Assembly: GCA_947176765.1 (NCBI GenBank)
Contig: CAMWRX010000022.1
Location: 1-36,536 of the forward strand
DNA length: 36,536 nucleotides
Reading direction: 5' to 3'
DNA from: an uncultured bacterium
GTDB lineage: Bacteria; Bacillota; Clostridia; Oscillospirales; Oscillospiraceae
Shown: in pieces, positions 3,099 through 23,374 of the stretch
How positions within the stretch are numbered: position 1 is the stretch's first letter
How the letters are laid out: each line of letters starts with the position of its first letter
The notes under the pieces: generated by a model
Seen by the model: the letters and a program-made list of their open reading frames with translations, nothing else
Database searches by the model: none
What the model was told of the DNA's origin: nothing
Made by a program: the position numbers and the translations under genes

Positions 3099-4658
3099 AT
3101 GGCAAATCAAGTCAAAACCCCAAAGGTCACCGTGATTGACCCCACTACCCCCAAAAAGGCCAAGCTCCGCGTGGCCGCCTATGCCCGCGTCAGCAGCGAC
3201 TCCGCAGACCAGCTCAACTCCTATCTGGCCCAGGTGGACTACTACACCCGCCACATCGGGGAGAACCCGGATTGGGAGTTGGCCGATATCTATGCAGATG
3301 AGGGCATCAGCGGCCTGGATACCCGGAAACGGGACGACTTCAACCGCATGATGGCTGATTGTCGTGCCGGGAAGGTTGACCGCATCTTGGTCAAATCCGT
3401 CTCCCGGTTCGCCCGCAACACCAGGGATACCCTGCACTTCATGCGGGAGCTGATGCGGCTGGGCATCACCATCCGCTTCGAGAAAGAGAACATTGACACG
3501 GGCAGACTCAGTTCCGAGCAGACGGCCACGATCTACGCGGCCTTCGCCCAGATGGAATCCACCGGCCATTCCAGCAACATGAGGCTCAGCGTCAAAATGC
3601 GGATGGAGAAAGGCATCTTCACCCCGTCCTCTATGCCCTATGGCTATCGGCTGAACGGATTGGAACCAGAAATCATCCCCGAGGAGGCCGAGGTGGTTCA
3701 GCACATCTTCTCCTCTGCCCTGCGCGGGCAAGGCCGAAAGGATATCGCCAGGGAATTGAACGAGCTGGGTATTGAGCGCGGCCATGGCCGAAAGGTTTGG
3801 CATCACACCACCGTCAACTATATCCTCACTAACAGCTTCTACACGGGTAACTCTGTCTGGCAAAAGTTCTGCACCACGGATACCCTGCCATTTCAGAAAG
3901 CAAAGAACAAAGGACAGCTCCCAACGTACCATGTGGAGGACGATCACCCGGCCCTCATCAGCCAGGAGGACTTCCAGCGGGTGCAGGCATTGATCGCTCA
4001 ACGCCGGGAGCAATTCTACGACAATGCCACGCCATCCCATTCTATCTACACTGGCAAGGTCTACTGCGGCAGATGCGGGTCAAAATTCCGTAGAAAAATG
4101 TGCGGCAATAAGGTCCACTGGGCCTGCTACCGCCACAACGCTGGCAAAGACCTCTGCCCTGCTCATCAGGTTCCCGAAACAGCACTCACCGCCGCCACTC
4201 TGCGGCTTCACAACAAGCTGGTTCTCCACGGGCAAGAGCTCCTCCAGCCCCTGCTGGACCAGCTTCGGGAAATCCGGGAGCGGGAGCTGCGCTCCAACCA
4301 AAAACTCAGTGACATCGACAAGGAAATAGCAAATATTTCAGGGCAGAATCTGGTGCTCATCCGGCTGAAAAGCAAGGGGTGCATCGATCCTGCCCTTGCT
4401 TTATCCCAGGCAGACCAGCTGAATCACAAACTGCGGGATCTGCGCCGCCTGCGCCGGAAGGTACTGGACGCCGCCGATGGCGACGAGCAGATCCAAACCA
4501 CCGAGGCCATCCTGGACTACCTGGAAATCGCCCAGTGGCAGACCGAGGTCACTCCCGACCTGTTCGAAAACCTGGTGGAGCGGATTACGGTGACCTCGCC
4601 AGATGAAGTGAAGTTCCGGCTGCTGAACGGGCTTGAACTGACGGAAAGGCTGGTGTGA
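3099..4658 (+). CDS. Large serine recombinase 1
   Basis: A 519-residue site-specific recombinase. The N-terminal resolvase domain begins at about residue 22, with the catalytic serine in YARVSS (Ser32, preceded by the conserved Arg30), and continues through YADEGISG and the VKSVSRFARN helix. The central recombinase (PF07508-type) domain includes PYGYRL and HHTTVNYILTNSFYTG. A zinc ribbon starts at about residue 321 (CGRCG, later a CYRH and a Cys pair), followed by a coiled-coil tail around 390-460. Such enzymes cut and rejoin DNA at att sites through a phosphoserine intermediate. The ATG at 3099 has AAAGGAGG upstream. It is the first of three recombinase genes, and the next begins three bases after its stop. 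Confidence 0.93.
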   Translation: MANQVKTPKVTVIDPTTPKKAKLRVAAYARVSSDSADQLNSYLAQVDYYTRHIGENPDWELADIYADEGISGLDTRKRDDFNRMMADCRAGKVDRILVKSVSRFARNTRDTLHFMRELMRLGITIRFEKENIDTGRLSSEQTATIYAAFAQMESTGHSSNMRLSVKMRMEKGIFTPSSMPYGYRLNGLEPEIIPEEAEVVQHIFSSALRGQGRKDIARELNELGIERGHGRKVWHHTTVNYILTNSFYTGNSVWQKFCTTDTLPFQKAKNKGQLPTYHVEDDHPALISQEDFQRVQALIAQRREQFYDNATPSHSIYTGKVYCGRCGSKFRRKMCGNKVHWACYRHNAGKDLCPAHQVPETALTAATLRLHNKLVLHGQELLQPLLDQLREIRERELRSNQKLSDIDKEIANISGQNLVLIRLKSKGCIDPALALSQADQLNHKLRDLRRLRRKVLDAADGDEQIQTTEAILDYLEIAQWQTEVTPDLFENLVERITVTSPDEVKFRLLNGLELTERLV

Positions 4659-4661
4659 CCT

Positions 4662-5528
4662 ATGGCATGGCAGAGAAAGATCCCCTTCGGCTACATGATC
4701 CGGGACGGGGTTGTCCAGCCCCATCCCCAGGAGACCGACGCAGTGCAGTATATCTTTGGGCAGTACCTGTCTGGGGCTTCCCTCCTCGCTATCGCGGAGG
4801 ACATGACCCGGCTGGGCGTCCGCTACCATCAGCACACCGCCGATTGGAACAAAAACATGGTCAAGCGCATCCTGGAAAACAGCAAATACATCGGTGTGGA
4901 CGGTTACCCCCGGCTGGTGTCTGATGAGGACTTTACCGCAGCCCAACGCCAGCGGAGATTACGCAGCATCTATGCCCCACTGGCCCCTGAAATCCGACCC
5001 ATCTGCGGCATGGCAGTCTGCGCCCAGTGCGGCGGCAGGATGGCACGGGGTACCCGCTCCCGTGGACGTGTCCAGTGGAAATGCCAGAACCTGAACTGTG
5101 AACAGAGTGTATTCCTCAGCGATGAAGCCCTGGCCGAGCTGGTGGTCGGACGGCTCCGGGAACTGGCCCAGTCCCCTCACCTGCTCACCGCCCCCGAACC
5201 CCAGCGGGCCGCGCCTACCATGGATGCCATTCGCCTCCAGAACGAACTGACCATGGCCCTCAACCGGGGCTCCGAGAAGCCTGAATACCTCAAGTCCCTG
5301 GCCCTTGCCGTCACCGCCCAGCGGTATGGGCAGCTCCCAGATCCCACTCCCGCTCACGATTTAGAACGGCTCCGGGCACAGCTGGAGCGGGGCCACGCCG
5401 GCGCCGACACGCTGGTTGATTTGCTGACCACAGCGGTGCGGGCCGTCCGGCTCACTCCTGACAAAAAAGTGGAGCTGGAACTGGACAACGGCATTATTAT
5501 CGCAGAAAAGGAGGCGCAGAGCGCATGA
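4662..5528 (+). CDS. Recombinase-family protein lacking the catalytic domain
   Basis: A 288-residue protein that starts directly in the recombinase DNA-binding domain (KIPFGYMIRDG, then an HTH-like SGASLLAIAEDMTRLGV and WNKNMVKRILENSKYIG). It contains a zinc ribbon from about residue 119 (CAQCGG, later a C-x(4)-C pair) and a helical C-terminus. No resolvase domain or catalytic serine is present, and no frame upstream could supply one because the previous gene ends three bases earlier. It is therefore not a cut fragment of a longer ORF in this window. By context it may act as an accessory DNA-binding subunit for its two catalytic neighbours; that is inference. Its stop overlaps the start of recombinase 3 by four bases (ATGA), indicating coupled translation. 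Confidence 0.85.
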   Translation: MAWQRKIPFGYMIRDGVVQPHPQETDAVQYIFGQYLSGASLLAIAEDMTRLGVRYHQHTADWNKNMVKRILENSKYIGVDGYPRLVSDEDFTAAQRQRRLRSIYAPLAPEIRPICGMAVCAQCGGRMARGTRSRGRVQWKCQNLNCEQSVFLSDEALAELVVGRLRELAQSPHLLTAPEPQRAAPTMDAIRLQNELTMALNRGSEKPEYLKSLALAVTAQRYGQLPDPTPAHDLERLRAQLERGHAGADTLVDLLTTAVRAVRLTPDKKVELELDNGIIIAEKEAQSA

Positions 5529-7174
5529 GCGTCCAGCAAAAAGCACCGAGGAAGGTCACCGTCACCCCGGCAGACCCCAAGTACACCCAGAAAGACATCC
5601 GCAAACAGCACCTGCGCGTGGCTCCCTACTGCCGGGTGTCTACCGGCAGCGAAGAGCAGCTCACCAGCTTCACCGCCCAGATGGAATACTACACCCAGCG
5701 CATCGCAGACACCGAAGGCTGGACGATGGTCCGCCTGTACGCCGATGAGGGCATCACCGGCACCTCCACCAAGAAACGCACCCAGTTCAACAAGATGATC
5801 CGGGACGCCGAGAAGGGCAAGATCGATCTGGTCATCACCAAGTCCGTCTCCCGGTTCTGCCGCAACACCCTGGACGGGCTGGAATACATCCGCAGGCTGA
5901 AAAAATGCGGCGTGGGGGTGTACTTTGAGAAGGAAAACACCAACACCCTCTATATGCCCAACGAGATGATCCTCACCTTCCTGATGAGCCAGGCCCAGGC
6001 CGAGAGCGAGTCCATGTCCTCCAACATCCAGTGGGGCTACCAGGCTCAATTCAAGAAGGGCATCGTCCACTACAACTACAAGAACTTCCTCGGCTACCGC
6101 AAAGGCACGGACGGCGAGCCGGAAATCGACGAGAATGAGGCCCCCACCGTCCGGCGCATCTTCGCCCGGTACCTGATGGGCCAAAGCGTGGGCCAGATCT
6201 GCAAGGATCTGACGGCGGACGGTCTCAAAACCGCCCGCGGCGGCACCGACTGGAGCGATCATACAGTGCGCCACATCCTGCAAAACGAGAAATACATGGG
6301 CGATGCCATCCTCCAGAAAACCTTCACACTGGACTTGTTCAGCCGCCAGCAGGTGAAGAACGAGGGGCAGCGCCCCAAATACTACGTGGAGAACGCCCAC
6401 CCGGCCATCATCGACCGGGCCACCTTCCAGAAGGTGCAGGAGGAGATGGCTCGGCGGTCCAGCCTGCGCAAGACCTCCTCCAAAGCCAAGACCGAGCAGG
6501 GCAAGCACAGCGGCAAATATGCCCTGAGTGGGCTGCTGGTGTGCTCCGAGTGCGGCAGCCCCTATCGCCGCGTGACCTATATGCCGGGCGGGCAGAAGCG
6601 GTTCGTCTGGCGGTGCATCAACCGGCTGGAGCATGGCAAACGGATCTGCAAATACGCCCCCACTCTGGAGGAACCGGAAGTGCAGACCGCTGTCACCGCC
6701 GCCATGAACGAACTGTTCCGGCAGCAGACGGCGCGGCAGACGCTGGCGGACTGCATCGCCGCCGCTCTGGCGGGTTCGGGCGATGACGCCTCCCTGCCTG
6801 CTGTGGAAGCCAAGCTGAGGGCGCTCCAGGAGGAGCAGATGAGACTGTTCCATCTGGCGGCAGATGCTGGGCCGGACAACACGGAGTATGACGACCAGCT
6901 CATCGAGGTGAGTGCCGCCATGGCAACCCTGCTGACCCGCAAGGGTGAGCTGGAGCAGGAAAATCGCACCAATACCGAGTGTAACAGCCGGATACGCATT
7001 ATCACTGACGCCCTGGAAACCACGGACAACTCCATCGGAGACTTCGACGAGGGTACGGTGCGTCAGACGGTGGCCAGCATTACTGTGCTGGATGCGGAGC
7101 GGCTTTCCATCCGCTTCAAGGATGGGACGGAGGTTAAGCAGATCATCGAAAGCGTAGGGAGGGCCAGCGCATGA
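5525..7174 (+). CDS. Large serine recombinase 3
   Basis: A 549-residue large serine recombinase. The catalytic motif YCRVST is at residues 35-40 (Arg37, Ser39), followed by YADEGITGTSTKKR and ITKSVSRFCRN. The recombinase domain spans roughly 170-330, and a zinc ribbon begins with LSGLLVCSECGSPYRR. A long coiled coil (ALQEEQMRLFHLAAD and following) and a final DUF4368-like strand pattern complete the usual domain order. It overlaps the previous gene by four bases and the following phosphoesterase by four bases, so all are one operon. Both catalytic recombinases are full length with intact active-site residues, which argues that the cassette was recently functional. Confidence 0.93.
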   Translation: MSVQQKAPRKVTVTPADPKYTQKDIRKQHLRVAPYCRVSTGSEEQLTSFTAQMEYYTQRIADTEGWTMVRLYADEGITGTSTKKRTQFNKMIRDAEKGKIDLVITKSVSRFCRNTLDGLEYIRRLKKCGVGVYFEKENTNTLYMPNEMILTFLMSQAQAESESMSSNIQWGYQAQFKKGIVHYNYKNFLGYRKGTDGEPEIDENEAPTVRRIFARYLMGQSVGQICKDLTADGLKTARGGTDWSDHTVRHILQNEKYMGDAILQKTFTLDLFSRQQVKNEGQRPKYYVENAHPAIIDRATFQKVQEEMARRSSLRKTSSKAKTEQGKHSGKYALSGLLVCSECGSPYRRVTYMPGGQKRFVWRCINRLEHGKRICKYAPTLEEPEVQTAVTAAMNELFRQQTARQTLADCIAAALAGSGDDASLPAVEAKLRALQEEQMRLFHLAADAGPDNTEYDDQLIEVSAAMATLLTRKGELEQENRTNTECNSRIRIITDALETTDNSIGDFDEGTVRQTVASITVLDAERLSIRFKDGTEVKQIIESVGRASA

Positions 7175-8127
7175 GTAAAATATACATAACAGGCGACTGC
7201 CACGGAGATTTCCAGCGGTTCACCACAAGGAACTTCCCTCAGCTGAAGGAAATGAATCGGGACGACTGCGTAATCATTTGCGGCGATCACGGCGGCGTGT
7301 GGGCCGGGGAGCAGGCAGACGGGCACAAGCTGGACTGGCTGGAGGACAAGCCCTTTACCACCCTGTTCGTGGACGGGAACCATGAGAACTTCGACCTGCT
7401 GAACGCCTACCCCGAGCAGGAGTGGCACGGCGGGCGTGTCCATGTGGTGCGGCCCCATGTCCTCCACCTGACGCGGGGGCAGGTGTTCGAGATTGGCGGG
7501 CTCACCTGGTTCACCATGGGCGGCGCGGCCTCTCACGACATTGAGGACGGCATCCTCGACCCTGCCGCCCCGGATTTTGAGCGGCAGTACTGGACGCTGC
7601 GGCGGATGAATGCCCGGTTTCGCGTGCTGGGCCGCGCCTGGTGGCCCGAGGAGATGCCCAGCGAGGCGGAGTACGCCGAGGCTGTGGCCAATCTGGAGCG
7701 GGTCGGGTGGTGCGTGGACTGCGTCCTCACCCACATTGAGGACGGCATCCTCGACCCTGCCGCCCCGGATTTTGAGCGGCAGTACTGGACGCTGCGGCGG
7801 ATGAATGCCCGGTTTCGCGTGCTGGGCCGCGCCTGGTGGCCCGAGGAGATGCCCAGCGAGGCGGAGTACGCCGAGGCTGTGGCCAATCTGGAGCGGGTCG
7901 GGTGGTGCGTGGACTGCGTCCTCACCCACTGCGCGCCCACCAGCATCGCCCAGCGGATGGACCGGTGCTACCAGCCGGACAGGCTGACGGACTTCCTGGA
8001 AACGGTGCAGAAGCGATGCCAATTCAGCCGGTGGTTCTGTGGGCACTACCACATCAACCAAGTGATCGATGAGCGGTTCGTAATCCAGTGGGAGCAGATA
8101 TCCAAAATCGAAGCTGACAGTATCTAA
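7171..8127 (+). CDS. Metallophosphoesterase with an internal 65-residue tandem duplication
   Basis: A 318-residue calcineurin-like phosphoesterase. Metal-ligand motifs are visible: GDCHGD (residues 8-13), CGDHGG (37-42), GNHE (69-72), a THCAP-type histidine and CGHYHIN near the C-terminus. Between the GNHE motif and THCAP, a 65-residue segment is present twice in tandem with no nucleotide difference. Removing one copy gives a 253-residue protein, a normal length for the single-domain family. The duplication is in frame, so the product is complete but has an insertion just before the conserved histidine; activity is uncertain. The start overlaps recombinase 3 by four bases and a terminator follows the stop, so this is the last gene of the recombinase operon. 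The substrate is unknown. Confidence 0.85.
   Translation: MSKIYITGDCHGDFQRFTTRNFPQLKEMNRDDCVIICGDHGGVWAGEQADGHKLDWLEDKPFTTLFVDGNHENFDLLNAYPEQEWHGGRVHVVRPHVLHLTRGQVFEIGGLTWFTMGGAASHDIEDGILDPAAPDFERQYWTLRRMNARFRVLGRAWWPEEMPSEAEYAEAVANLERVGWCVDCVLTHIEDGILDPAAPDFERQYWTLRRMNARFRVLGRAWWPEEMPSEAEYAEAVANLERVGWCVDCVLTHCAPTSIAQRMDRCYQPDRLTDFLETVQKRCQFSRWFCGHYHINQVIDERFVIQWEQISKIEADSI
7538..7929 (+). repeat. Perfect 195-bp tandem duplication
   Basis: Positions 7538-7734 and 7733-7929 are identical over 197 bases with a period of 195 bases and a two-base overlap at the junction. The period is a multiple of three, so the phosphoesterase frame is kept. Total identity implies a very recent event or an assembly artefact. 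Confidence 0.95.
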
Positions 8128-8360: not shown

Positions 8361-8792
8361 TCAGTACTCCTCAGCATCTGCCTTTGTACGATGAACGGTT
8401 CCCTTGGGGTGCTGCGGCGGCGCATAGATAGATGAAAGCATCAATGGACACTTCCCGGCATTAAGAATGTTGTGCCATGTACCGCACGGCACAAATACTG
8501 CATCTCCCACACTGAGGTGGTGATAAACGTCCAGGTTTTCCCTACAAGGCCCCATTCGGACGAGAGCCTCTCCACCTTCCACTCGGATGAACTGATCCGT
8601 GTCAGAATGCATTTCCACTCCGATCTCGCCGCAGACAGGGATACACATCAGGGTCATCTGCAAATGACGGCCCGTCCAAAGCGCACTGCGAAAATTTTGG
8701 TTATGCCGCACCGCGCGCGGTATATTTACAACAAATGGATCACGCCCGTGATCAGTCTCACAGCTGTGCTCTACTGGATGATGAGAGTCCAT
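8361..8792 (-). CDS. Cupin domain protein
   Basis: A 143-residue single-domain cupin. The second cupin motif is intact, GDAVFVPCGTWHNILN (residues 96-111, metal-ligand His107). The first motif is reduced, with His62 and a following acidic stretch in MHSDTDQFIRVEGGEA. Cupins of this size are often isomerases, dioxygenases or sugar-binding proteins; the substrate is not readable here. I chose the ATG at 8792 because AAGGAG lies eight bases upstream; the frame extends to 8840 but without a ribosome binding site. It is convergent with the recombinase operon and divergent from the AlbA_2 gene, so it is a separate transcript. Confidence 0.8.
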   Translation of the reverse strand: MDSHHPVEHSCETDHGRDPFVVNIPRAVRHNQNFRSALWTGRHLQMTLMCIPVCGEIGVEMHSDTDQFIRVEGGEALVRMGPCRENLDVYHHLSVGDAVFVPCGTWHNILNAGKCPLMLSSIYAPPQHPKGTVHRTKADAEEY

Positions 8793-9271
8793 ATCATACG
8801 CTCCTTCCCATTTTCGGTACAATATTTTATGCCACTTCATGTGTCCCGGTGAATGGTGTTTAACACTCTCTGTTGAAAACTTTTAAGATACATTATATTT
8901 TTGAACAGTCAGTTCAACCAAAGGAACTTACCTTTTGATTCAATCAAGAAACAGATTTCTCCCTTATTAAAAGAACTGCTGACAAATACCAGGGTCATTC
9001 TGATAGTACTACTTACTGAAATCCGCCGTTTAAATCCACATGATTCAAATGTAATTCCTATTCCAAATTTCAGCAATACCTGCTATAATAGTTTCAAGAG
9101 GTCAGAAATGTGGCAGAGGATAAAAAACAAAGGTACCTTTGCCTATCCGATGGTCGTCCATGAATTCACCTCATGGCTTGCACCAGAACTTAAAATGCTG
9201 TTGTTGAAATTGTCTCTGTGTTCAAAATAGAATGGTTATGGTAAAAGGGCTATTTGTTGGGGGGAGCAAGT
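8793..9271. other. AT-rich intergenic stretch, possible gene remnant
   Basis: Nearly 480 bases separate the cupin and AlbA_2 genes. A frame from a TTG at 8901 to 9230 encodes 109 residues, of which the last 40 (from MWQRIKNKGTF) look protein-like. It has no good ribosome binding site and no family I recognise. It may be debris of a former gene. The promoter of the downstream AlbA_2 gene should lie in the last part of this stretch, but I could not identify a convincing -35/-10 pair. Confidence 0.3.
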
Positions 9272-10846
9272 ATGGATGATGTAACACTTCAAAAAATTGC
9301 ACTGTTAATTCAACAGAAGGCAGAGGGTGATTATTGGGACTACAAACAGAAATGGCACTCTGATAATGAGCGGTTGCTACATGACATACTTTGCTTTTCA
9401 AATACGATTCATGATAAGGATTGCTATTTAATTATTGGCATTTCGGATAATGGAGAAATTATCGGATTGACATCAGAAAGCCCGCACAGGAAAAACCAAG
9501 CTATGGTTCTGGATTTGTTATATAACACTGCTTTTGCTGGAGATTATACTCCAAAAGTCTCTGTAGAGTCTATTCAAATGCAAGGAAAAGAAATAGACAT
9601 ACTGACAATATATAATTCTTATAATGTGCCATTTTATCTGAAGAAAAAACCAGATAGATATAGATCCATTATGCCGGGATATATCTATTCAAGAATAGGA
9701 GATCGAAACACTCCAATAAATCAAAATAGTAATATTCAGCAAATTGAGATGCTCTGGAAAAAGCGACTTGGATTACTGAGTCCACCGCTAAAGCAAATCA
9801 TACTTAACCTAAAAAGCAAATCAGAATGGGTTCAGGAAGAAGATACCTATTTCTACATCAACAATCCGGATTTTAAAATAGAAGAAGGTAGGTGTACAGA
9901 TACTGGAGATAATTGGCGACCTGATCGCCCTGAATTTTACTCATATAATCAGATGAATATAAGGACTTCATATATAGAGTTAAGTGCAATTTATAGGCAA
10001 ACTATATTGCGAAGAATTGATGTTGTAATTTTAGACAGTGGGCGCTACATGACTCCTGTCCCAGATTGGGCGTTTATTCATAATTCCTCAGGACATTTCG
10101 AAGTGCTATATTCTTACAAATATATTTTAAAAGACAGTTTGGAATATGCTATTCAGCAGTTTTTGTATGACGATAAAAACGGAGAAGCAGTGGAAGCAAA
10201 AAGGCGGTTCGATGAGGTGGTCTTGTACTTTGAAAACGCAGTTGAGCAACAAGAATTTCATAACCACATAGAGAAAAAACCTGAAATTGTTTCTGATTAT
10301 ATTGCTGATGCAGCACTTGGAACTTATGTGATTGAATCTGAGGATCCCTTTGAGAAACAAGACGCAACAAAAAAGTTAATAGTAGCTTTTGCGTTCAAAC
10401 GCTATCTGTTTGATTACCGAAGAAGCAATTCTGGCGTTACAGTTAGAAGAATTGCCAGCATTCAACTAATTAACAGGCAACCGAGCGCATATTGTTCAGA
10501 TATTTTTGAGCATCGCCTAACTATAAACGCCAGTGGCTATATCCACCATTCTATGTATGCAAAGGATGATTCGAAGGCAAGGTTCCGATATGTATACCAT
10601 AGCACAAAATATTGGACACGAGATTTTCTGAATTATATTGAGCCCATATCGACTGACTGGGAAACTGACTACATTATAGAAGGTTGTGACCAAGATGAGT
10701 GGGAATGTATTATAAAGTATACAGATGGGATAAAGAAGATAATCAAAGGAAACACACCTCCACCAAATTATGATACCGTCGAATGGCGGATTGCACATCT
10801 CGCAAGATATAAAGTTAAGCCTTGGATATTTGGAACATATGGTTAA
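9272..10846 (+). CDS. AlbA_2 (Schlafen-type) domain protein
   Basis: A 524-residue protein. The N-terminal 150 residues fit the AlbA_2/Schlafen putative nucleic-acid-binding domain: WDYKQKWHS (22-30), then LLHDILCFSNT (35-45), CYLIIGISDNGEIIGL (51-66) and later a YIYSRIGDRNTPI segment. The remaining 350 residues match no domain I know and contain no Walker or nuclease motif that I can see. In bacteria, AlbA_2 proteins occur as regulators and in several defence or toxin contexts. The ATG at 9272 follows GGGGGAG; an upstream TTG at 9254 is unlikely. Base composition is much more AT-rich than the recombinase genes to the left and the lar operon to the right, consistent with separately acquired cargo. 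The cyclase-like gene follows after 53 bases. Confidence 0.75.
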   Translation: MDDVTLQKIALLIQQKAEGDYWDYKQKWHSDNERLLHDILCFSNTIHDKDCYLIIGISDNGEIIGLTSESPHRKNQAMVLDLLYNTAFAGDYTPKVSVESIQMQGKEIDILTIYNSYNVPFYLKKKPDRYRSIMPGYIYSRIGDRNTPINQNSNIQQIEMLWKKRLGLLSPPLKQIILNLKSKSEWVQEEDTYFYINNPDFKIEEGRCTDTGDNWRPDRPEFYSYNQMNIRTSYIELSAIYRQTILRRIDVVILDSGRYMTPVPDWAFIHNSSGHFEVLYSYKYILKDSLEYAIQQFLYDDKNGEAVEAKRRFDEVVLYFENAVEQQEFHNHIEKKPEIVSDYIADAALGTYVIESEDPFEKQDATKKLIVAFAFKRYLFDYRRSNSGVTVRRIASIQLINRQPSAYCSDIFEHRLTINASGYIHHSMYAKDDSKARFRYVYHSTKYWTRDFLNYIEPISTDWETDYIIEGCDQDEWECIIKYTDGIKKIIKGNTPPPNYDTVEWRIAHLARYKVKPWIFGTYG

Positions 10847-10899
10847 AAGTGTTTTAGATTAAATCAAAGCAGTTGAAAAGTGTTAGGAGATGACTATAT

Positions 10900-11598
10900 A
10901 TGGACAGGATTGCTACAGAGGAATACTTTATAGCATTTTTAGACGTCCTTAACTGTAAAAAGATCATACAGACTGACTCACACGATGTACACCTAAATCA
11001 AATCAGAAACATTTACACAAGTTGGAGACAGATTATAAATGAAAAGGATTTCGTATTCTCTCAAATCGAGCTTAAAATTTTCTCCGACAACATATTGCTT
11101 GCAATTAAAACAAGTTGTAACAGAGCTGCTGATCATATTTTGGAATGTGTGGCGGATATTGCAGAACATTTTTTGGTATGTGGTTATAAATTACGGGGTG
11201 GAATATGTAAAGGAAAACTTTACATTGATGACACATTTGTGTGGGGAGAAGGATTAGTTGACGCGTACAATATGGAAAGTACAGAAGCAAAATATCCACG
11301 TATTATTTTATCGGACGATGTTGTTAATTCTGCCTCAAAGCATATCGCAGATATTATGTTTTCAATAGATGCGGCCTATGATAATCGCATTTATTTAAAC
11401 TACCTGCGTGCATTTGGACGAAGTAAAGAGTACTGGATAGCAAAAATATCCGAAGCACAAAACAAACTAACTGCAGAGTTAGTTGCTCTTTCGACTCTGC
11501 CTGATGAAAGGATTATGGAAAAGCTGCGATGGTTAGAAACCTTTTTTGAAGAGAATCTCAGGTATTGGCAAGCAAAAGGAGAAAAACAGAAATGGTAA
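10900..11598 (+). CDS. Nucleotidyl-cyclase-like protein, first copy
   Basis: A 232-residue protein with the skeleton of a class III nucleotidyl cyclase palm domain: FIAFLDVL (Asp15), IFSDNILLAI (Asp63), LRGGICKGKL (98-107) and WGEGLVDAYNME (115-126), followed by IILSDDVV. In known cyclases the two Asp bind catalytic metals and the G...VxxA segment lies in the substrate pocket. Small stand-alone cyclases of this general form occur in Pycsar anti-phage systems, but I cannot show that this one makes a cyclic nucleotide. It may only bind nucleotides. The last 60 residues are a charged helix. It lies between the AlbA_2 gene and the SEC-C gene and overlaps the latter by seven bases. A second protein with the same motifs is at 20400-21203. 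Confidence 0.6.
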   Translation: MDRIATEEYFIAFLDVLNCKKIIQTDSHDVHLNQIRNIYTSWRQIINEKDFVFSQIELKIFSDNILLAIKTSCNRAADHILECVADIAEHFLVCGYKLRGGICKGKLYIDDTFVWGEGLVDAYNMESTEAKYPRIILSDDVVNSASKHIADIMFSIDAAYDNRIYLNYLRAFGRSKEYWIAKISEAQNKLTAELVALSTLPDERIMEKLRWLETFFEENLRYWQAKGEKQKW

Positions 11599-12182
11599 GG
11601 GAAACAACTCCACCTACAATAACGCCAGTTATTGTAGAACTCTGTAAATTCATTAATAAAGATATCCCACCGTTTTATGTTGATGTGATTCCGGAACCAT
11701 ATGCATTGCAAAATGAGTGCTTTCCAAATGTTCAGGCCAAAATTATGCGAGATGGCGGCACATATATTAATGGATGGACTATATGGCAATGGGGAAATGC
11801 CCTTATAGATGCTGAAGCACATAGCTTATGGCAATCAGATGATGGAAGATTAGTTGACATTACTCCTCATTCGTACGGCGAAAAGCGAATTCTTTTTGTT
11901 CCTGATACATCTGTAAAATTTGAAGGTGTAATTATCCCAAACAAAAGAGCACCATTAACTACATCTCCTACAATTGCGCGGCTAATTGATTTGTGTAATA
12001 CGAAAGATTATATATTGCAGCAGTCTGGTACAAGCAAAACATGCGCAATTCCGAAAGCATTGATTGATGAGATATTGAGACTGCAAATAGCGATCAGACA
12101 AGAGGTTTCGCAAAATGATTTGTGTCCATGTGGATCAGGGTTGAAATATAAAAAATGTTGTGGGCCATACGAACATATTTAA
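11592..12182 (+). CDS. SEC-C protein with possible transglutaminase-like domain
   Basis: A 196-residue protein. The C-terminus is a clear SEC-C zinc-binding motif, CPCGSGLKYKKCC (Cys178, 180, 189, 190), known from the SecA tail and many unrelated proteins. The N-terminal domain has Cys43 (NECFPNV), then AEAHSLW (His77) and LVDITP (Asp89). The order Cys, H-x-x-W, D-x-T-P resembles the catalytic triad of transglutaminase-like cysteine proteases; this is my inference from spacing and motifs. The ATG at 11592 has AAAAGGAG upstream and overlaps the cyclase-like gene by seven bases, so the two are translated together. It is the last gene of the three-gene unit. If the triad is real, it would be a candidate protease or cross-linking effector. 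Confidence 0.65.
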   Translation: MVRETTPPTITPVIVELCKFINKDIPPFYVDVIPEPYALQNECFPNVQAKIMRDGGTYINGWTIWQWGNALIDAEAHSLWQSDDGRLVDITPHSYGEKRILFVPDTSVKFEGVIIPNKRAPLTTSPTIARLIDLCNTKDYILQQSGTSKTCAIPKALIDEILRLQIAIRQEVSQNDLCPCGSGLKYKKCCGPYEHI

Positions 12183-12373: not shown

Positions 12374-12400
12374 AAAAGCATTTTTGCAACATTGAGCCAT
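12374..12400 (+). repeat. 27-bp repeat, copy R1
   Basis: First of three copies of a 27-bp motif (core GCATTTTTGC, then ACATTGAGCCAT). This copy differs from the other two by one base (A for C at the eleventh base of the core). It lies 191 bases after the SEC-C gene and abuts a perfect 14-bp stem at 12401-12434. It probably marks the right end of the first accessory island. Confidence 0.85.
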
Positions 12401-12434
12401 AACTCGACAGGTTTCGACAAAAACCTGTCGAGTT
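12401..12434 (+). terminator. Hairpin next to repeat R1
   Basis: A perfect 14-bp inverted repeat (AACTCGACAGGTTT with its complement) around a six-base loop begins directly after the 27-bp repeat. It looks like a terminator, though the T-run after it is weak (ACTTTAT). Confidence 0.65.
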
Positions 12435-12587
12435 ACTTTATATGCGTCAAGAAAAATTGCAACGTACAGCAACTTTTGTCCATTGCAATGATGGTTTATC
12501 TTTGCCACAGAGCGAAATTTCCCTCATATGTATAAGTAAAGGAATTTACAACATCATCATTTTTAAAGCCCTTGACGCTCCAATCTC

Positions 12588-19101: not shown

Positions 19102-19128
19102 AAAAGCATTTTTGCCACATTGAGCCAT
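19102..19128 (+). repeat. 27-bp repeat, copy R2
   Basis: Identical to copy R3 at 23348-23374 and one base different from R1. It is followed after four bases by an 18-bp perfect stem. R2 and R3 are direct repeats enclosing the second accessory island, with the recombinase starting 105 bases after R2. This arrangement suggests element boundaries. Confidence 0.88.
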
Positions 19129-20201: not shown

Positions 20202-20399
20202 ACAAGTTCTTAGTCCCTATCTACTTTTGTTATAAAACTATAAACTCCACTCTATTTTTGTCCAAATGGGAAGGCCATCACAAATCAAACACAACAATTA
20301 GGGCTTTCGTTGTCGTAAAGTGTCTGCTATAATGGCTTTAGGAACTCGGGGCAAAGCCTTGTAGGTATACATAGTAAAAAGCATTTGAGGAGAATGAGT

Positions 20400-21203
20400 A
20401 TGAAATACGTTGCTTTTCTGGATATTCTTGGATTTAAAGAAAAGCTGAAAACACTGAGCCACGATGAGGCCAGACAGTTCATAGGCCATTTTTCGTCAAT
20501 AGCATATGCGGCCTGGAGAGACATGGCCCCTAAGCATCTAAACGGGTACATTGTAAGTGACTCATTTATTATCTATTCAGCGGATACAAGTCAGGTGGCA
20601 CTTGGTGAACTTAGTCAGGCGATTGATACCATATGTAAGAACGAGTTCTCTGCTAATAGCATCTTAATCCGAGGTGCAATAGCAAAAGGCGAGTTTGATA
20701 AGCTCCAAGCAAGAGAAATGTCAACTCTTGGTAAAGAGCTAATAGTTGGGCAAGCTTATGTTGATGCATATCTTCTTGAGGGAACAGTTAAAACTACAGG
20801 GATTGTGTTAAGTGAAGATGTTTATAAGGATTTGCTTAATATAGGTGGTTTTGAAAAGGACATTTTTACTGAAAATATTAATGGATCAAAATGCTATGTA
20901 TTAAGGTACCTCACTCTCGACTATCTCCTGGATATTAAGAGAATGGAAAAATTTGTTGAGTTGGCTAATTCTTCTGGATGGCTTCCCCATTATTATAACT
21001 CATTATACTTTTCGTTTAGAGGCGAAACTAACGATAAGAAGGTACAGCAGGTTTTCATTAATCTCTTTAGCGCCGTAGCCAAGGGCAAGCCAAACGAAAA
21101 TTGGAGAGAACTTGATATTTTTATTCGCAATGTGTTCGATAAAAACGTGTTGTCTGACTTTCAAACACGTTTTCTGAAATATCTTCGCAAGAGCCTGTTT
21201 TGA
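20400..21203 (+). CDS. Nucleotidyl-cyclase-like protein, second copy
   Basis: A 267-residue protein with the same motif order as the protein at 10900-11598: VAFLDILGF (Asp8), IVSDSFII (Asp54), ILIRGAIAKGEF, and VGQAYVDAYLLE followed by IVLSEDV. These correspond to the two metal-binding aspartates, the glycine-rich hairpin and the substrate-pocket helix of class III nucleotidyl cyclases. Overall similarity between the two copies is low outside the motifs, so they are distant paralogues with different partners rather than a duplication. The C-terminal 100 residues are helical and unassigned. The ATG at 20400 has GAGGAG eight bases upstream (an ATG two codons earlier is possible). The composition is AT-rich. 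Cyclic nucleotide synthesis is possible but unproven. Confidence 0.6.
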   Translation: MKYVAFLDILGFKEKLKTLSHDEARQFIGHFSSIAYAAWRDMAPKHLNGYIVSDSFIIYSADTSQVALGELSQAIDTICKNEFSANSILIRGAIAKGEFDKLQAREMSTLGKELIVGQAYVDAYLLEGTVKTTGIVLSEDVYKDLLNIGGFEKDIFTENINGSKCYVLRYLTLDYLLDIKRMEKFVELANSSGWLPHYYNSLYFSFRGETNDKKVQQVFINLFSAVAKGKPNENWRELDIFIRNVFDKNVLSDFQTRFLKYLRKSLF

Positions 21204-22240: not shown

Positions 22241-23263
22241 ATGAAAACACCAAATATCACCCATAATAACCACTACGTTCCGCAGTTCTACCTAAAAAAC
22301 TGGAGCACTAATGAAAAGACAATTTACACATACAGTCTGCTTGTTTCAAATAGCAAGGTTCCTTACTGGAGAAACGAGTCTATCAGAAGCGCAGCAGTTT
22401 GGTACGACTTATATACAAGGAACATCGCACAACAAGAAGTTAATGATTTCGAGACATGGTTTGATCATGAGTTCGAGTCTCCAGTTAAACCAGTGTTTGA
22501 TAAACTCCTCTGCGGTGAGCAAATTACAAAATGCGATCGCATTATAATTTCAAGATTTGTTGCGGCGCAACATATGCGTACACCAGCAAGTTTGAACCGT
22601 ATTTTAGAGTTTGAGCGGACAGAGTTTCCAAAGGCTATAGAGGATACACTGCAGAAGCTAAACCGGAAATTATCAAGCGGGAATACCCATGCTCTCAATA
22701 AGGTGCCCCCAGTACAAAACGACCTGATCCCTCTAAAAGTAACTTTTGATAAAGAAAAAAGTTTTGTAAAGGCGGAAGCTATTGTTGGAAAAAGTACATA
22801 CTTATTTGCCGTAAAACATCTTCTCACAGAAACTATAAAGCATATGTACGGACATCGCTGGAGTATCATACATGCAGCCGATGGCATATCCTTTCCGACA
22901 TCTGATGACCCCGTTATTTGTCTTAATTATCGAAGCGAAAATGATTATGATTTTGATGGCGGATGGGGCTTAAAGAATGGAAACATAATAATGCAAATCT
23001 CGCCCAAAATGCTCCTATTTACACAAATTGGGGATAAAAACTCCTACAATTTTTTAGATAATTCCCTGCATTGGAGTAGTTTTTTTCGCAAAATCATTAT
23101 CCAACATGCATATCGATCAGTATTTGCTGATAAACCTCAAAAAGGCATATTGGAAATTAATCCCCGCATAGTGAACAAAAACCTTTATGATAAAGAAAAA
23201 AATATAGTTGCGTCTTGGCATCAAGAACATATGTTAGCCGAAAAACAATTGTTGGACGATTAA
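22241..23263 (+). CDS. DUF4238 protein
   Basis: A 340-residue protein whose N-terminus NHYVPQFYLKNWS is the signature of DUF4238 (H-[HY]-x-P-Q-F-Y-L-[RK]-x-[FW]). Further on, RFVAAQHMRTP and the segment around DGISFPTSDDPVICL are also typical. The biochemical function of this family is not known; as far as I recall, DUF4238 proteins are listed in anti-phage catalogues, which fits the setting beside a cyclase-like and a nuclease-like gene. The ATG at 22241 has GAGG seven bases upstream. It is AT-rich and is the last gene of the island, 84 bases before repeat R3. Confidence 0.8.
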   Translation: MKTPNITHNNHYVPQFYLKNWSTNEKTIYTYSLLVSNSKVPYWRNESIRSAAVWYDLYTRNIAQQEVNDFETWFDHEFESPVKPVFDKLLCGEQITKCDRIIISRFVAAQHMRTPASLNRILEFERTEFPKAIEDTLQKLNRKLSSGNTHALNKVPPVQNDLIPLKVTFDKEKSFVKAEAIVGKSTYLFAVKHLLTETIKHMYGHRWSIIHAADGISFPTSDDPVICLNYRSENDYDFDGGWGLKNGNIIMQISPKMLLFTQIGDKNSYNFLDNSLHWSSFFRKIIIQHAYRSVFADKPQKGILEINPRIVNKNLYDKEKNIVASWHQEHMLAEKQLLDD

Positions 23264-23347: not shown

Positions 23348-23374
23348 AAAAGCATTTTTGCCACATTGAGCCAT
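23348..23374 (+). repeat. 27-bp repeat, copy R3
   Basis: Identical over 27 bases to R2 at 19102-19128, in the same orientation, 84 bases after the DUF4238 stop. The hairpin that follows starts within its last two bases. It is the likely right boundary of the second island. Confidence 0.88.

Follow-up and report, generated by a model that had tools for sequence, protein, structure and literature searches.

The DNA analysed here (36,536 nucleotides of contig CAMWRX010000022.1, from an uncultured member of the Oscillospiraceae; hereafter the window) carries three consecutive genes on its forward strand, at positions 9272–12182. Gene 1 (P0001; 9272–10846) encodes a protein of 524 amino acids that belongs to the PDC-S50 family and has an N-terminal SLFN_AlbA_2 domain; it is predicted to be an RNase effector of the Schlafen type. 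Its last ~140 residues (10424–10843) form a C-terminal module that, among the other aligned PDC-S50 proteins, is present in that of locus L087 alone. Gene 2 (P0002; 10900–11598) encodes a 232-residue protein of a family marked by the motif FLDILGF, and is probably a divergent relative of class III nucleotidyl cyclases. Gene 3 (P0003; 11592–12182) encodes 196 residues, with a conserved N-terminal domain containing C43, H77 and D89 and a SEC-C tail. All three open reading frames (ORFs) are uninterrupted, and since each has homologues in which residues are conserved, none can be put down to chance. A gap of 53 bases separates gene 1 from gene 2, genes 2 and 3 overlap by 7 bases, and purine-rich stretches resembling ribosome-binding sites (GGGGGGAG, AGGAG and AGGAGA) precede the three starts. 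The GC content of the trio is ~0.36, compared with ~0.6 in the flanks on either side. The ORFs and base composition thus bear out an earlier description made from the letters alone (the sequence-only reading): three AT-rich genes in a row on one strand, with 7 bases shared by the second and the third. To the same reading the combination looked like a defence or abortive-infection module, and it is this idea that we examine here.

Distribution of the three gene families

The three families are distributed separately in the sets searched. For gene 3, 125 loci were examined with flanks of up to 6 kb (less at contig ends). A gene-2 relative is present in none of them, either at E 1e-3 or at E 1, and a gene-1 relative is present in two (L087 and L092). 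Around gene-2 relatives, the surrounding stretches contain neither gene 1 nor gene 3 in any of 13 other genomes of the class or on any of five plasmids, and neither gene is found in 39 pattern-matched viral stretches, 21 of which contain a gene-2 relative. Six genomes hold gene 1 or its C-terminal module, one of them being 81% complete; among these, the gene-2 or gene-3 family is found anywhere only in the genome from which the window comes (E 0.001). In the stretches examined of three plasmids that carry gene 1, gene 2 has no relative and gene 3 none of full length; in the window, two close genes follow the PDC-S50 gene.

In the loci examined, then, there is no other trio and no gene 2 with either partner, and genes 1 and 3 are once adjacent (L087) and once in the same island (L092). 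With the families apart in nearly all loci and only these two exceptions, the neighbourhood check, which the sequence-only reading itself had named as a way to refute its module, speaks against the trio as one conserved module. A literature search (titles and the first part of abstracts, preprints and most subscription papers lying outside it) found no description of the combination of Schlafen, cyclase and SEC-C proteins. The adjacency of three conflict-type genes, tempting as it is to read further, does not automatically make a system.

Sequence features of the three proteins

Gene 1 matches Pfam SLFN_AlbA_2 over residues 18–149 (E 3.1e-14; 54 bits against a cut-off of 25.3), in agreement with the AlbA_2 domain named in the sequence-only reading, and PADLOC PDC-S50 over residues 2–384 (profile positions 2–383 of 387; E 3.5e-128). 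We take the ‘S’ in this name to mean ‘single’, that is, a single-gene architecture. The match to PDC-S50 is nearly full-length, but gene 1 has 140 extra C-terminal residues and two further genes downstream. PDC stands for ‘phage defence candidate’ (PMC11514479). E18, D23 and K25 are kept in all six aligned rows, gene 1 included, and position 59 is D in four and E in two. Judged by residue spacing, gene 1 carries a Schlafen-like acidic triad, E18/D23/D59. It has the AlbA_2 domain and a first triad spacing of 5 in common with SLFN13-type RNases, and the second spacing is close (36 in gene 1, 38 in SLFN13). For tRNA cleavage, SLFN13 requires E205, E210 and D248 (PMC5862951), and according to a 2026 comparative-genomic paper several prokaryotic Schlafen-linked systems are able to act as anti-phage modules via tRNA cleavage (PMC12839542).

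Matches to gene 1 occur in 6 of 295 genomes of the order at E 1e-3 (own genome included), only those in the own genome and G254 extending well beyond the AlbA_2 region, and in 4 of 398 genomes of the phylum at E 1e-10, three of which (own, G808 and G681) cover nearly the whole model. Among 72,556 plasmid records 24 match, none across 80% of the protein. A short relative of gene 1 adjoins GajA and GajB in L092, a Gabija island. No useful match to gene 1 was obtained in viral contigs (queried with the single protein, and with the long form too), in phage records or in a profile search of the PDB.

The C-terminal module sets gene 1 apart from the four shorter relatives in the alignment, which have 376–383 residues (gene 1 is ~140 residues longer). 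The 522-residue protein of L087 is 57% identical to gene 1 throughout and ends in the same module (50% identity in the module region). Pfam yielded nothing for the module up to E 10, and searches of viral contigs and plasmids with it gave no useful match. Among 391 genomes of the class, five matched: the own genome, G379, G661 and, weakly, G323 (E 1.8e-4) and G355 (E 5.0e-4). The two weak matches, the first of which lies inside what reads as a radical-SAM-like ORF, were dropped. In G379 (L275) the module ends a long gene 1 that is surrounded by HsdS-like and GmrSD genes. In G661 (L276) it is a stand-alone protein of 135 residues (5843–6250, minus strand) with type III Res-like and Mod-like genes nearby. 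Outside gene 1, the module is therefore seen only in two long relatives and, on its own, in a type III restriction island. Its presence in L275 and L276 places it in differing conflict loci. That a Schlafen-type defence candidate carries a C-terminal module which may be exchangeable is one lead worth following.

Gene 2 has no Pfam match, and its family is recognizable by the motifs FLDILGF, FSD, RGG and GPA...YxLE. Every row of two family alignments (15 and 20 rows) has both D15 and D63. Pfam Guanylate_cyc is weakly matched by three of 20 family members (best E 0.0053). Searching the PDB with a 20-row profile (E up to 10) gave eight sequences, six of them class III adenylate cyclases (best E 0.07); the 15-row profile gave four, three of them cyclase entries (best E 0.59). 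The matches to PDB cyclases span E 0.07–2.2. Comparison with nine Guanylate_cyc rows using hhalign gave 35% and 66% probability, covering the whole domain and placing D15 and D63 on the two metal-binding aspartates; five control pairings gave 0.1, 0.1, 0.2, 1.2 and 6.4%. Individually these matches are marginal; taken together they make a class III cyclase-like fold likely, so that the cyclase assignment of the sequence-only reading gains ground while falling short of proof. Class III cyclases use a transition-state Asn and Arg. The corresponding columns hold V120 and N124 in gene 2; across the two alignments (15 and 20 rows), Asn occupies the first column in one row of each, and Arg the second column in two rows and one row, respectively. 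This pair being mostly missing from the family, standard class III chemistry is not to be assumed. Class III cyclases, including PycC of Pycsar, share with gene 2 the two aspartates and the aligned RGG and G.A...E motifs, but differ in the Asn/Arg pair. Pycsar provides a precedent for cyclases with class III motifs that can drive signalling defence (PMC11224242). No Pycsar effector (PycTM or PycTIR) was found beside gene 2: its neighbours are genes 1 and 3, and the trio contains no TIR match. One of 15 family members matched Csm2 (E 0.023); this assignment was rejected, and the family has no other PADLOC match.

The gene-2 family occurs in 14 of 391 genomes of the class at E 1e-3, with three copies in the own genome; used as a single-protein query, gene 2 gave no useful match in viral contigs or phage records. 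We read 19 gene-2 loci (13 in other genomes of the class, the own-genome copy on C8 and five on plasmids), and five have restriction or defence neighbours. In L076 (8205–10276) the family member lies between HsdM and HsdS of a type I restriction operon, and in L077 (own genome, 8628–12718) directly ahead of a type I R-like gene. DNA methylases are neighbours in L075 and L078, and Dsr1 in L018. As for the remaining 14 loci, the HATPase neighbour in L080, which was scanned, is not clearly defensive; the others were assessed by eye, and several are unremarkable. The defence context proposed in the sequence-only reading is thus supported for gene 1 and for these five gene-2 loci. An unnamed cyclase-like family inside restriction operons of at least two genomes (L076 and, in the own genome, L077) is a second lead.

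Gene 3 matches Pfam SEC-C over residues 175–192 (E 1.9e-9), as the sequence-only reading had it. Conservation in its family is high at C43 (55 of 56 rows), E75 and H77 (56 of 56 each) and D89 (53 of 56). Together with D15 and D63 of gene 2, C43 had been singled out beforehand, and the three residues are indeed the ones conserved in the alignments. The Cys-His-Asp order would fit a transglutaminase or a papain-like enzyme. Compared with 24 Transglut_core (PF01841) rows, gene 3 gave 0.2% in hhalign, that is, no profile similarity; a transglutaminase by profile was accordingly rejected, and the label ‘protease-like’ given to gene 3 gained no support. The protein thus has the residue order of transglutaminase-like cysteine enzymes, without their profile, and its tail is that of SEC-C proteins.

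The N-terminal domain of gene 3 is widespread (Clostridia, Proteobacteria and others). There are 117 relatives in the genome collection, of which 80 were kept, a further 45 loci in viral contigs and relatives in 51 plasmid records. Matches in 136 of 391 genomes were excluded as family members: besides the own genome, among the matches listed, only the C-terminal SEC-C part aligned. As a single-protein query against viral contigs, gene 3 likewise recovered SEC-C tails only. Within three genes of gene 3, recurrent neighbours are KfrA-like genes (11 of 125 loci) and UmuC-like genes (7 of 125), both named by reading. In a Faecalibacterium genome (L086) and in a human-faecal phage record (L013), a close gene-3 relative directly follows a Y-family polymerase gene (UmuC-like, by reading).

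Interpretation of the trio

With moderate confidence, we read the trio as a defence-island assortment around a known candidate anti-phage RNase, with gene 1 as the likely provider of the defence. We do not regard it as a conserved three-part system, because relatives of the three genes almost always lie apart in the genomes examined. GC content and setting suggest a horizontal origin. The trio would then be acquired cargo, composed of three conflict-type genes that usually travel separately and are here probably co-transcribed. Once phage infection is sensed, the AlbA_2 core of gene 1 (E18/D23/D59) would cut tRNA or other RNA, which would stop the growth of the infected cell; we expect gene 1 to protect by itself. 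For its C-terminal module, a part in sensing or in contacting a partner seems most likely. Gene 2 most likely uses D15 and D63 to bind a nucleotide together with two metals, and may either make a nucleotide product or act as a regulatory sensor. Gene 3 would most likely be an accessory hydrolase or a nucleic-acid-associated protein.

Several observations weigh against this reading. Genes 2 and 3 share 7 bases and the trio is closely packed, both of which point to co-regulation. In L087, a full-length long gene 1 follows gene 3 on the same strand at a distance of 45 bases, which hints at a partnership between these two genes. In the L092 island, ~5 kb separate gene 3 from a short gene 1, and GajA, GajB and AbiH are present as well. 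An Escherichia coli plasmid (L012) carries a gene-1 relative and, 285 bases away in the opposite orientation, a gene for a large SEC-C protein, which resembles gene 3 solely towards its end (the tail). Finally, a literature search for PDC-S50 found neither the name nor an RNase activity or phage phenotype for it.

The adjacency in L087 is also what recommends the best-surviving alternative, in which a long gene 1 and gene 3 form a two-gene core (for example, an effector with a processing or inhibiting partner) and gene 2 is a chance insertion. The two genes are close in the window too, although in the other order (gene 3 comes first in L087; here gene 1 does, with gene 2 between), and both families recur in L092. 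The count is biased, because L087 came from the gene-3 search. The long form of L275, found without this bias, comes from a genome with no gene 3 anywhere, and gene 3 has other recurrent neighbours, the KfrA-like and UmuC-like genes. We consider such a core possible but unlikely.

Three-component signalling defence is a less probable alternative. Here infection would activate gene 2, and either gene 1 (for instance through the module) or gene 3 would bind the nucleotide it makes and then cut RNA or a protein, halting the cell. The probable operon with its 7-base overlap, a cyclase-like gene 2 with invariant metal-binding aspartates and the Pycsar precedent all fit. Yet gene 2 is missing from the flanks of all 125 gene-3 loci, genes 1 and 3 are missing from the stretches examined in the 13 other gene-2 genomes and five gene-2 plasmids, and five genomes with gene 1 or the module are without the gene-2 and gene-3 families. 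We regard a bolder proposal as a long shot: gene 2 would stand for a family, so far undescribed, of nucleotide synthases that are class III-like in keeping the metal-binding aspartates but differ in catalysis, and it would make a new signal that switches on a Schlafen RNase through the C-terminal module, which at least one other restriction island has as a separate protein. That the trio serves the mobile element itself (stability, exclusion or anti-defence) and not host defence is the most improbable reading: recombinase genes and dispersed repeats lie near the trio, and gene-3 relatives occur in the viral-contig loci and plasmid records mentioned above, but gene 1 belongs to a defence-candidate family with relatives in restriction and Gabija islands.

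Surroundings of the trio

A 27-bp repeat follows the trio (12374–12400) and stands at both ends of a second island at 19.1–23.4 kb (19102–19128 and 23348–23374), as the sequence-only reading had noted; the three copies are 96–100% identical. Further copies lie on other contigs of the own genome, and of 12 other genomes of the genus one has the repeat; it is therefore dispersed and no exclusive mark of these two islands. Directly 3′ of the first copy, on the forward strand, is a terminator-like hairpin of 15 pairs (12400–12435).

The second island carries another member of the gene-2 family (20397–21203, forward strand), which is a row in both gene-2 alignments. Its assignment as a NYN RNase was rejected, the match (E 0.062) being below the cut-off. 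The same island encodes a DUF4238 protein (22241–23263; E 1.8e-29) that weakly resembles PADLOC DUF4238-Pers.

Upstream of the trio lie recombinase genes (3099–7174; serine recombinases, by reading). The trio had been placed just downstream of this cassette, which is loose: a phosphoesterase gene (7171–8127) and a cupin-like ORF (8361–8840, minus strand; cupin by reading) lie between them. The phosphoesterase gene contains an exact, in-frame tandem duplication of 195 bp (7538–7927), which could have arisen recently or be an artefact of the assembly. At the start of the window, segments 200–320 and 2811–2900 have relatives that are only ~40 and ~120 bp apart in another own-genome contig (G000:C21) and in a congener (G1056:C85), respectively; this close spacing suggests that 388–2683 is variable cargo flanked by conserved ends.

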